In this document: in pieces, positions 7,320 through 10,933 of the stretch
Layout of the letters: every line of letters begins with the position of its first letter
Position numbering within the stretch: the first letter of the stretch is position 1
Assembly (NCBI RefSeq): GCF_937890665.1
Contig: NZ_CALADU010000168.1
Span: forward strand, 1-10,933
Source of the DNA: an uncultured Subdoligranulum sp.
Lineage (GTDB): Bacteria > Bacillota_A > Clostridia > Oscillospirales > Ruminococcaceae
Direction: 5' to 3'
Length of the DNA: 10,933 nt
The notes under the pieces: model-generated
Databases searched by the model: none
What the model saw: only the letters and a program-made list of their open reading frames with translations
Told to the model about the DNA's origin: nothing
Program-made: the position numbers and the translations under genes

Positions 7320-8495
7320 ATGGACTACAATCAAGCTGCTCTCGAACTGCATGCCAAGGGGCCCGGTAAACTGACGGTACAAAGTCTGGTCCCCTGCAAA
7401 GATAAGGATGCCCTTTCCACTGCTTATACGCCGGGCGTGGCGGAACCCTGCCGCAAAATTGTGGCAGACCCGGATGCTGTCTACACCTACACCCTCAAAG
7501 GCCGCACGGTGGCGGTAGTCACCAACGGTACGGCTGTGCTGGGGCTGGGCAATATCGGTCCCGAAGCCGGTATGCCGGTCATGGAAGGCAAGTGTGTGCT
7601 CTTCAAGGAATTTGGCGGTGTGGATGCGTTCCCGATTTGCCTGAATGCCAAGACCAAAGAGGAAGTCATTGCAGCGGTGAAAGCCATTGCTCCCACTTTT
7701 GGCGGCATCAATTTGGAGGATATCCGCAGCCCTGAATGCTTCGAAATCGAGGCAGAGCTGGAGCGGGATCTGGACATCCCGGTTTTCCACGACGATCAGC
7801 ATGGTACAGCCATCATCGTGCTGGCCGGCGTGCTCAACGCGCTGAAAGTTGTGGGCAAACGAATCGAAGATGTACGCATCGTACAGAATGGCCCCGGCGC
7901 TGCCGGCACAGCCATCATCCATATGCTGCAGGTGGCGGGTGCAAAACACATCATCGCAGTGGATGAACACGGTATTTTGGTGCCGGGACGTCCGCAGGGG
8001 CTGGCAGGACATAAGGCCAAGCTGGCAGAGGAAACCAACCCTGAAAAGTTGAGCGGTGGTCTGGCAGAGGCCATCCGTGGTGCGGATATCTTTATCGGTA
8101 CTTCCATCGCCGGAGCGTTGACGCCGGAACTGGCGGCCACGATGGCCCCGGATGCCATCGTCTTTGCCATGGCCAATCCCACGCCGGAAATTATGCCGGA
8201 TGCTGCCAAAGCGGCGGGCATTCGTGTCATCGGTACCGGCCGTTCGGATTTCCCCAATCAGGTAAACAATGTGTTAGCTTTCCCCGGCATTTTCAAAGGG
8301 GCCCTGTCGGTACGTGCCCGGGATATTAACCCGGCCATGAAGATGGCGGCAGCCAAAGCCATTGCCGGTTTGATCCCTGACGAAGAACTCAACGAGGAAA
8401 ACATCCTGCCCAAAGCCTTTGATCCGCGGGTGCCGGAAGCGGTCGCGGCGGCGGTGGCGCAGGCAGCACGAGAAAGCGGCGTGGCGCGGGTATGA
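7320..8495 (+). CDS. Malic enzyme (oxaloacetate-decarboxylating, short bacterial form)
   Basis: Malic enzyme oxidatively decarboxylates L-malate to pyruvate and CO2 with NAD(P)+, using Mg2+ or Mn2+. The 391 residues fit the short bacterial type without a phosphotransacetylase extension. Catalytic Tyr36 sits in TAYTPGVAEP and catalytic Lys91 in EGKCVLFKEFGG. Probable metal ligands are Glu133 and Asp134 in NLEDIRSP and Asp159 in FHDDQHGTA. The nucleotide loop is GPGAAG at 191-196. NAD versus NADP preference cannot be read safely from the sequence. The start ATG follows AGAGGA with a short spacer. The gene overlaps the fumarase alpha subunit by 4 nt (ATGA), so the two are translationally coupled and likely act in sequence: fumarate to malate to pyruvate, or the reverse. 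Confidence 0.95.
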   Translation: MDYNQAALELHAKGPGKLTVQSLVPCKDKDALSTAYTPGVAEPCRKIVADPDAVYTYTLKGRTVAVVTNGTAVLGLGNIGPEAGMPVMEGKCVLFKEFGGVDAFPICLNAKTKEEVIAAVKAIAPTFGGINLEDIRSPECFEIEAELERDLDIPVFHDDQHGTAIIVLAGVLNALKVVGKRIEDVRIVQNGPGAAGTAIIHMLQVAGAKHIIAVDEHGILVPGRPQGLAGHKAKLAEETNPEKLSGGLAEAIRGADIFIGTSIAGALTPELAATMAPDAIVFAMANPTPEIMPDAAKAAGIRVIGTGRSDFPNQVNNVLAFPGIFKGALSVRARDINPAMKMAAAKAIAGLIPDEELNEENILPKAFDPRVPEAVAAAVAQAARESGVARV

Positions 8496-9340
8496 AAAAC
8501 ATTCGGGAAGTAAACGCCGACACCATTCGGGATGCGGTGGAGGCTCTGTGCATCGAGGCCAACACCAGCCTGCCGGTGGATGTAAAAGCGGCGCTGGATC
8601 GTGCAGAAGCCACGGAACCGTGGCCCTTGGCAAAACAGACGCTGGGGCTTTTGCAGCAAAATCTTTGCGTGGCGGCCCAGCAAGAATTGCCGATTTGTCA
8701 GGATACCGGCATGGCCTGTGTCTTTTTGGAAGTAGGGCAGGACGTGCATATCGAAGGCGATCTGCAAGCTGCTGTGGATGAAGGGGTACGCCGCGGGTAT
8801 GAAAAAGCCTACCTGCGCAAATCCATTACTGCAGACCCTTTGCAGAGAGTCAATACAGGAGATAACACGCCCGCATTTCTCACAGTACATCTGGTACCGG
8901 GTACCGGCTGTAAGATCACGGTAGCCCCCAAAGGTGCCGGCAGTGAGAATATGAGCCGTTTGGCGATGCTCAAACCGGCTGATGGGGTGCAGGGTATCAA
9001 AGATTTTGTGCTGGACACGGTGCGGCAGGCAGGCGCGAATCCCTGCCCGCCCATTGTGCTGGGAATCGGTATTGGCGGTAGTTTTGACCACTGTGCGGCG
9101 CTGGCCAAAAAGGCGCTTTTGCGGCCGTTGGACCAGCCCAACCCCGACCCGTATTATGCGGCGCTGGAACAGGAACTGCTGCAAGCCATCAATGACACCG
9201 GGTTTGGCCCGCAAGGTTTTGGTGGCGCCACCACCTGTCTGGGCGTTTCCATCGAGCAGCGCCCCACTCACGTGGCCTGCCTGCCGGTGGCCGTTAACAT
9301 GAGTTGCCATGTGACTCGCCGTGCTAGCCGGGAGGTGTAA
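8492..9340 (+). CDS. Fumarate hydratase class I, alpha subunit
   Basis: This 282-residue protein is the N-terminal half of the iron-sulfur class I fumarase, which interconverts fumarate and malate; here, as in many anaerobes, the enzyme is split into two genes. The three cysteines expected to hold the oxygen-sensitive [4Fe-4S] cluster are visible: Cys69 in CQDTG, Cys185 in NPCPP and Cys271 in MSCHVTRRA. Other family segments are PKGAGSENMS (146-155) and GIGIGGSFD (191-199). The start overlaps the malic-enzyme stop as ATGA and has only a weak Shine-Dalgarno, so translation probably depends on coupling. The related L(+)-tartrate dehydratase alpha subunit cannot be fully excluded by sequence alone, but the malic-enzyme context favours fumarase. 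Its beta partner lies 199 nt downstream, separated by a small gene. Confidence 0.94.
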   Translation: MKNIREVNADTIRDAVEALCIEANTSLPVDVKAALDRAEATEPWPLAKQTLGLLQQNLCVAAQQELPICQDTGMACVFLEVGQDVHIEGDLQAAVDEGVRRGYEKAYLRKSITADPLQRVNTGDNTPAFLTVHLVPGTGCKITVAPKGAGSENMSRLAMLKPADGVQGIKDFVLDTVRQAGANPCPPIVLGIGIGGSFDHCAALAKKALLRPLDQPNPDPYYAALEQELLQAINDTGFGPQGFGGATTCLGVSIEQRPTHVACLPVAVNMSCHVTRRASREV

Positions 9341-9342
9341 GC

Positions 9343-9540
9343 ATGGCCAACAGCAAAATTGACATCTCTTTGGAAGGCGTGGGGGAAGCGCCCCGCGCTC
9401 GCCGCAGCCGGATCGACATTCCGCTGGAAGCAGACCGGGACGGTATGGGAATTACCGCCAAAGAGCTGGAATTTGTCAACCGACATCATGAAGAGTATAA
9501 GGAACTGCGCCGTCGCGCGCGGGAACAGGGAGGCCGCTGA
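9343..9540 (+). CDS. Small protein of unknown function between the fumarase subunit genes
   Basis: I do not recognise this 65-residue product. It is very likely a real gene: it starts 2 nt after the alpha-subunit stop behind a strong GGAGGT (9331-9336, 6 nt spacing), its TGA shares one base with the ATG of the beta subunit, and it carries that gene's Shine-Dalgarno. The protein is charged, lacks cysteine and has no membrane segment or signal peptide. Its first half holds two copies of a short motif, SKIDISLE (4-11) and SRIDIPLE (22-29), 18 residues apart and joined by a basic stretch. The second half (about 39-62) looks like one amphipathic, Arg/Glu-rich helix. Being coupled on both sides to the fumarase subunits, it may act in their assembly, cluster protection or regulation; that is inference from position only. 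Confidence 0.85.
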   Translation: MANSKIDISLEGVGEAPRARRSRIDIPLEADRDGMGITAKELEFVNRHHEEYKELRRRAREQGGR

Positions 9541-10881: not shown

Positions 10882-10933
10882 GCGGCTATGGCGGAATTGG
10901 CAGACGCGCTGGTTTTAGGGTCCAGTGTCCACG
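10882..10933 (+). tRNA. tRNA-Leu (anticodon UAG), 3' part outside the window
   Basis: The 5' acceptor strand GCGGCTA (10882-10888), TG linker, D arm GCGGAATTGGCAGACGC and anticodon arm are present. The anticodon is TAG at 10916-10918, with T33 before it and G37 after, decoding CUA and other CUN leucine codons. The start of the long variable arm typical of leucine tRNAs (TGTCCACG) is visible before the window ends. The anticodon stem pairs CTGG with CCAG but leaves T31 opposite T39 next to the loop. Confidence 0.92.

Follow-up and report, generated by a model that had tools for sequence, protein, structure and literature searches.

Class I fumarases are oxygen-sensitive [4Fe-4S] enzymes of the central metabolism of gut anaerobes, and in the two-subunit type the alpha and beta subunits (NF004885 and NF005310) are encoded by fumA and fumB. 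The window analysed here, the whole stretch of 10,933 nt from an uncultured Subdoligranulum sp., carries both genes, and these were ordinary members of their families; the solved relatives of its FumA include 7xky (298 aa) and 5l2r (604 aa). In outgroup genomes, fumA and fumB lay within 52 nt of each other at 18 of 21 loci, whereas in the window a gene of 65 aa is interposed between them.

Two other described systems resembled the small protein in part. The cytoplasmic linker of FtsK/SpoIIIE from three relatives within the Oscillospirales presented a comparable pair of IDI[PS]L-type motifs, placed 21-22 residues apart versus 18 in the window protein, although the small protein has neither a membrane nor an ATPase domain. 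IreB (PF06135) is likewise a small protein and was found as the neighbour of a paralog of the one studied here, but the small ORF had no PF06135 match and IreB is a separate gene. In Clostridioides difficile, both IreB and the FtsK linker were phosphorylated under the control of PrkC, according to a published study (PMC9674922).

The small gene and its coupling to fumB

An earlier note on this DNA had described the ORF between the two subunit genes, and its observation was confirmed, since the coordinates, the length of 65 aa, the 2-nt distance from the fumA stop, the strong Shine-Dalgarno and the 1-base overlap with fumB were all exact (Table 1). The fumA stop occupies positions 9338-9340, the small ORF runs from the ATG at 9343 to the TGA at 9538-9540, and in the resulting TGATG junction this TGA and the fumB ATG have base 9540 in common. 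The fumarase genes are preceded by a malic enzyme gene and followed by a sortase-domain gene. The small ORF is a real gene, a chance ORF being ruled out by its homologues, its fixed position and its dN/dS.

Table 1. Features of the fumarase locus, in positions of the window
Feature	Position	Strand	Evidence or remark
Malic enzyme gene	7320..8495	+	Pfam malic and Malic_M; 4-nt overlap with fumA start
fumA, class I fumarase alpha subunit, 282 aa	8492..9340	+	PF05681, E 1.7e-112; NF004885 above cut-off
FumA Ala62 codon	8675..8677	+	Residue tracking small-ORF presence
Shine-Dalgarno of small ORF, GGGAGG	9330..9335	+	Within fumA end; read from sequence
Small ORF, 65 aa, uncharacterised family	9343..9540	+	Homologues, position, selection
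Repeat 1, SKIDISLE, residues 4-11	9352..9375	+	Family alignment, codon pattern
Repeat 2, SRIDIPLE, residues 22-29	9406..9429	+	Family alignment, codon pattern
Predicted C-terminal helix, residues 39-63	9457..9531	+	AlphaFold2; VNRHH signature at 9475-9489
Shine-Dalgarno of fumB, GGGAGG	9528..9533	+	Within final codons of small ORF; read from sequence
fumB, class I fumarase beta subunit, 186 aa	9540..10100	+	PF05683, E 1.2e-55; NF005310 above cut-off

An RNA element at the small ORF was also considered and rejected, as Rfam at gathering thresholds revealed only a ZMP/ZTP riboswitch elsewhere in the window (RF01750, 1304-1386, - strand, 57.2 bits). This riboswitch is placed just 5′ of a - strand gene running from 1300 down, which resembles that of formate-tetrahydrofolate ligase. 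At the other extremity of the window, the last ~50 bases (about 10882-10933, + strand) are presumably the start of a tRNA-Leu cut by the window end, and ARAGORN found no complete tRNA there.

The tight layout with fumB noted in the window extended to all 26 genomes of the genus in which the small ORF was found (see below), where the distance from its stop to the fumB start, set by alignment to the window FumB, ranged from -1 to 6 nt. It was -1 for the window and 10 of the genomes, 15 others had 2-6 nt, and the junction of G421, TGAAGATG, had a 2-nt gap. In the window and each of the 26 genomes, the final codons of the small ORF contained a purine-rich stretch, and the codons of the C-terminal QGG of the window protein also serve as the fumB Shine-Dalgarno. 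Upstream, GGGAGGT was also present 5′ of the small ORF in the 10 near relatives with an overlapping fumB start. Because of this gene layout, the small protein is probably made together with fumarase.

The same layout also speaks for a different explanation, in which the small ORF would serve mainly as a spacer whose translation couples and balances the synthesis of FumA and FumB while its peptide does little: the fumB Shine-Dalgarno is embedded in the ORF end, down to the double use of the QGG codons, and the fumB start overlaps or closely follows the stop in every one of these genomes. However, the residues of the protein were kept while their codons changed, the same residues recurred in paralogs that have no fumB downstream, and genomes devoid of the gene keep fumA and fumB 15-38 nt apart, which makes the spacer function quite unlikely as the main one.

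Distribution and probable losses of the small gene

The genus searched was that of Gemmiger formicilis MCC627 (G005, locus L005), represented by 35 genomes, in which profile searches detected the small-ORF gene in 26 and fumB in 32. The earlier note had proposed to tabulate the position of homologues, and in 26 of 26 genomes carrying the small ORF it had a fixed place between the two subunit genes and shared their strand, that is, it was genetically linked to both fumarase subunits. A malic enzyme match was found upstream of fumA in all 26 of these loci and in 18 of the 21 outgroup loci. Six of the 32 fumB-bearing genomes had no small ORF and presented a clean fumA-fumB adjacency, with gaps of 15, 15, 37, 38, 19, and 21 nt (measured from one match to the other, so that the stop codon of fumA is included), and this occurrence of fumarase alone speaks against a strict need for the small protein. 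Three further genomes (G404, G417, and G420) had neither fumB nor the small ORF.

None of the 21 outgroup loci with both fumarase subunits carried the small ORF. Their fumA-fumB gaps were 16-52 nt in 18 loci and 224-276 nt in three (G373, G026, and G320), and no family member was found inside these larger gaps. This outgroup was no random draw, being made up of those loci outside the genus that scored best in the family survey, and the count leaves out L113, whose fumA lies beyond the stretch, and the gaps of G047, G135, G082, and G209. The 276-nt insert of G373 (L098) looks non-coding, whereas most outgroup loci have 16-52 nt. In several genomes of the family survey, the listed fumA and fumB matches were on different contigs or distant on one, as in G366, and thus the two genes of a split fumarase can also lie apart.

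In the FumAB tree, the 33 genus rows formed one clade (100/99). The gene-less G412, G407 and the G363/G395 group were nested inside gene-bearing groups, and so the small-ORF gene was likely lost on at least three lineages of this tree. Since G395 grouped with the gene-bearing G005 (89/77), G363 and G395 may represent two losses. For G418 and G419, both loss and primary absence are possible because the base of the tree has no resolution.

Selection on the small ORF and limits of the family

Purifying selection was detected by the dN/dS comparison that the earlier note had suggested. Among the 10 rows of the window clade, the median dN/dS of the small ORF was 0.192 (43 of 45 pairs with pS<0.7), versus 0.053 for FumA (45/45 pairs) and 0.045 for FumB (44/45 pairs) in the same rows; the median dS was near 1.1, and synonymous sites were therefore close to saturated. 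Across 26 rows (the window and 25 genomes, G421 being left out for its VNQHH signature), the median was 0.377 (302 of 325 pairs). Moreover, 33 alignment columns were invariant in the window clade; the window protein has gaps in eight of them, and of its residues in the remaining 25, all except the start Met (24 of 25) varied in codon. Judged by these substitution patterns, selection is preserving the small-ORF gene.

A search of 5.8 billion proteins returned 85 homologues at E<=1, and an alignment enlarged with divergent members and paralogs found 210 relatives; among the matches listed (the best 120 of the 210 for the enlarged alignment), the source names were few, all being 'hypothetical protein' of Gemmiger or Subdoligranulum. 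The small ORF matched no Pfam and no NCBIfam family at E<=1, lacking in particular the PF05681 and PF05683 domains of a class I fumarase subunit, and no solved structure matched the family profile at E<=10. It fits the definition of the family drawn from the alignments, namely one or more IDI[SP]L motifs followed by a VNRHHxExK helix. Two surveys, covering 396 genomes of the taxonomic family and 394 of the order, revealed no member outside the genus; at most 15 first-look candidates were scored per survey genome, and thus distant members could be missed. Among the matches listed in a literature search, no paper was recognised as describing the small protein. The gene, which encodes an uncharacterised protein, is present in most of the Gemmiger species examined.

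Other affiliations were considered and discarded. There were no PHROGs matches for the small ORF, neither phage nor plasmid records gave a match at E<=0.01, and the best PADLOC match to a defence protein (E 0.017) was taken as chance. Some Pfam matches of the 28 family members were treated as effects of composition: DUF3602 in one member (E 8.5e-4), DUF5113 in two (E 0.06) and five further families in one member each (E 0.065-0.17).

Architecture of the small protein

The two SxIDIxLE motifs indicated by the earlier note, SKIDISLE and SRIDIPLE, are present in the window protein with a spacing of 18 residues. The eight codons of one repeat differ from those of the other at two Ile third positions, at the first position of Leu, and at the K/R and S/P codons, and the claim that they had diverged mainly at third positions was roughly right. 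What the note took for an old internal duplication is better seen as a repeat motif of variable copy number, as family members carried one to three motifs of the IDI[SP]L(D/E) type, with three in G157, G415, and G405, and one or both motifs were degenerate in G402, G060, G410, and G409. A codon pattern for IDI[PS]L[DE], in which Ser was counted only as TCN, gave nine matches in six whole genus genomes (about 18 Mb), all at the fumarase locus; there were none in G363 and G412, the two of the six without the small ORF, and a backwards version of the pattern had no match in the same six genomes. With all nine matches at one locus and an empty control, the IDI motif is not a product of chance. The equivalent pattern for VNRHH recovered five family members and two unrelated frames (G157 and G363).

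The C-terminal signature of the family is (I)xxxELE(F/L/M)VNRHHxExKxxxRRA, and V45, R47, H48, H49, and R57 were invariant in the 28-row family alignment, paralogs included. G421, which is outside this alignment, has VNQHH in place of VNRHH, with Q for R47. AlphaFold2 predicted for the window protein a single helix of at least four residues, 39-63 (VNRHHEEYKELRRRA), and no strand, with low confidence (mean pLDDT 66.7, pTM 0.25); the end of this helix overlaps the fumB ribosome-binding site. An amphipathic character of the helix was dismissed, being no better than in shuffled sequences (703 of 5000 reached the observed value).

A young lineage-specific gene, whose function is still changing and which has no single conserved role yet, would be consistent with the restriction of the family to the genus in these searches, with the varying number of repeats and with the several likely losses. 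This explanation is unlikely, considering the five residues kept invariant in all 28 rows, including those of the paralogs, with the substitution of R47 in G421 as the departure.

Resemblance to FtsK linkers and paralogs behind ireB

In the two surveys, the only non-genus matches to the family profile at E<=0.001 were three FtsK linkers (L152, L153, and L166, from three Oscillospirales genomes), all with a pair of IDI-type motifs. Two came from the 396 family genomes (E 3.7e-4 and 1e-3) and one from the 394 order genomes (E 1.2e-5), values that are modest and calculated per genome. The similarity was confined to this linker motif pair: the matches leave uncovered the VNRHH helix in which the small protein ends. 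The small ORF is also not an FtsK/SpoIIIE protein itself, since its 65 aa contain no Pfam match and no DNA translocase ATPase or membrane domains. Comparison of the family with the three linkers by hhalign gave a probability of 94.6 and an E-value of 6.7e-08, which is flattering because the linkers had been chosen as matches. Similarly, among 11186 frames of the collected loci, forward profiles ranked FtsK first among those without the family signature, with E-values flattered by the preselection of the loci. Reversed profiles run on the same frames had no match in the FtsK coding frame (lowest E 1.8 and 1.1), and gave one weak match (E 7.6) in another frame of two FtsK loci. The FtsK linkers of the Gemmiger genus itself had a single FDVDLGP-like motif in all six examined, out of 10 genus loci. 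Apart from the three linkers with the motif pair, several had a single motif such as FDVDLGP.

A second copy of the family was present in seven of the 35 genus genomes (L040-L045 and L124), in the order nagB-nagA-ireB-paralog, directly behind ireB in all seven; for the G406 paralog, which was scored with its start not set, nagB is beyond the stretch analysed. The paralog faces a gene of the methionine gamma-lyase family in six genomes and enolase in one. The six paralogs that were read were 55-57 aa long, and the G410 paralog has no IDI motif. At E<=1, a profile of these six paralogs recovered 37 proteins, among which members from the fumarase locus scored lowest. The same profile also matched, weakly, a 512-aa frame of G421 (E 0.0036). 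In view of the shared PrkC control of IreB and the FtsK linker described for C. difficile (PMC9674922), the ireB neighbourhood of the paralog is suggestive, but no more.

These observations bear on the main rival explanation, according to which the small protein would be an independent adaptor, for which the fumarase operon is no more than a means of expression. Its IDI pair would dock on a partner shared with the FtsK linker, its helix would bind something else, and the ireB-linked paralog would do a related job. The exclusive recovery of FtsK linkers bearing the motif pair, the hhalign probability, the behaviour of the reversed profiles, the constant place of the paralog behind ireB and the phosphorylation reported in C. 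difficile are all in its favor. Nevertheless, the linkers entering the hhalign and reversed-profile comparisons had been picked as matches and the survey E-values were modest, the six Gemmiger FtsK linkers examined have only the single FDVDLGP-like motif, one of the six paralogs read lacks the IDI motif, and the fixed place between fumA and fumB is left unexplained, so that we hold an independent adaptor to be possible, if somewhat improbable.

Association with fumarase

A comparison of FumA columns with the presence of the small ORF pointed to residue 62: 25 of the 27 gene-bearing rows have Ala there, versus one of the 19 gene-less rows (1/6 gene-less genus rows and 0/13 outgroup rows). The exceptions among the gene-bearing rows were Thr in G408 and Lys in G409, the latter with a degenerate small protein, and the six gene-less genus rows had K, K, R, A, D, and L. 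In a first column test, four FumA columns were conserved in gene-bearing rows and changed on at least two of the four gene-less lineages, a count reached by seven of 300 pseudo-loss draws made without branch-length matching; the same test on FumB gave no columns. A naive Fisher test on residue 62 yielded 1.2e-9, ignoring kinship. When 1000 alignments were simulated on the tree, a column changed on at least three of the four gene-less lineages appeared in 255, and in 72 when the outgroup had to differ as well, while the strictest statistic was reached in 10; column 62 was already known when these three statistics were set up, and the simulated alignments had fewer conserved columns than the real FumA alignment (mean 284 versus 316). 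The association of this one residue with the small ORF, on which a direct link to FumA depends, is a lead only.

Distance covariation across 25 genomes (300 pairs) gave no fumarase-specific signal for the small ORF, whose distances tracked malic enzyme at least as closely as fumarase. The partial correlation beyond malic enzyme was 0.13 for FumA and 0.12 for FumB, versus 0.40 between the small ORF and the malic enzyme MaeB given FumA. A read-through fold of FumA, the small ORF product and FumB had low confidence (mean pLDDT 45.1; eight alignment rows).

The interpretation of the earlier note, a fumarase-specific factor for assembly, stability or regulation, was partly supported. The positional fixing, the selection and the tight layout with fumB are on its side, and two outcomes that the note named as refuting it, a lack of homologues between the subunit genes and a lack of purifying selection, did not occur, whereas its specificity is undermined by the absence of the gene from six of 32 genus genomes and from all 21 outgroup loci, by the ireB-linked paralogs and by the tracking of malic enzyme. 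A fumarase-specific assembly or stability factor should resist loss, and the genomes without the small ORF weaken that idea. The likely losses, the paralog, the lack of fumarase-specific rate covariation and the resemblance to FtsK together argue against an obligate fumarase factor, and such a role is improbable for the small protein.

Proposed role and meaning

The small-ORF gene is conserved, under selection and locked between fumA and fumB, with the fumB ribosome-binding site in its last codons. As the best single reading, we tentatively favor a protein accessory to the class I fumarase of Gemmiger. Such a protein would be mostly disordered, with one to three short IDI[SP]L docking motifs and one helix. 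Ribosomes leaving fumA would make the small protein and then re-initiate on fumB, so that all three products would be made together. The docking site of the small protein might be the FumA helix immediately ahead of PICQDTG, at about residues 58-62; once docked, the small protein might tune how the oxygen-sensitive enzyme assembles, how stable it is or how it binds partners, although for both of these steps the support is thin. The Cys of PICQDTG is presumably a cluster ligand. The accessory protein would be helpful but dispensable, since several species appear to have lost its gene.

A bolder proposal is that the family constitutes a docking adaptor whose repeated IDI motif mimics one of the FtsK linker, so that a protein made together with fumarase could tether a TCA-cycle enzyme to division or PASTA-kinase machinery, with the ireB paralog serving the same pathway; we consider this very unlikely. 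If it were true, an FtsK-like docking motif would link metabolism with cell division. If the small protein is a dedicated fumarase partner, with a fixed place between the genes of the two subunits, a textbook enzyme would gain a new element. The small ORF is, in addition, a clear case of a selected small protein that is missing from the family libraries used here.
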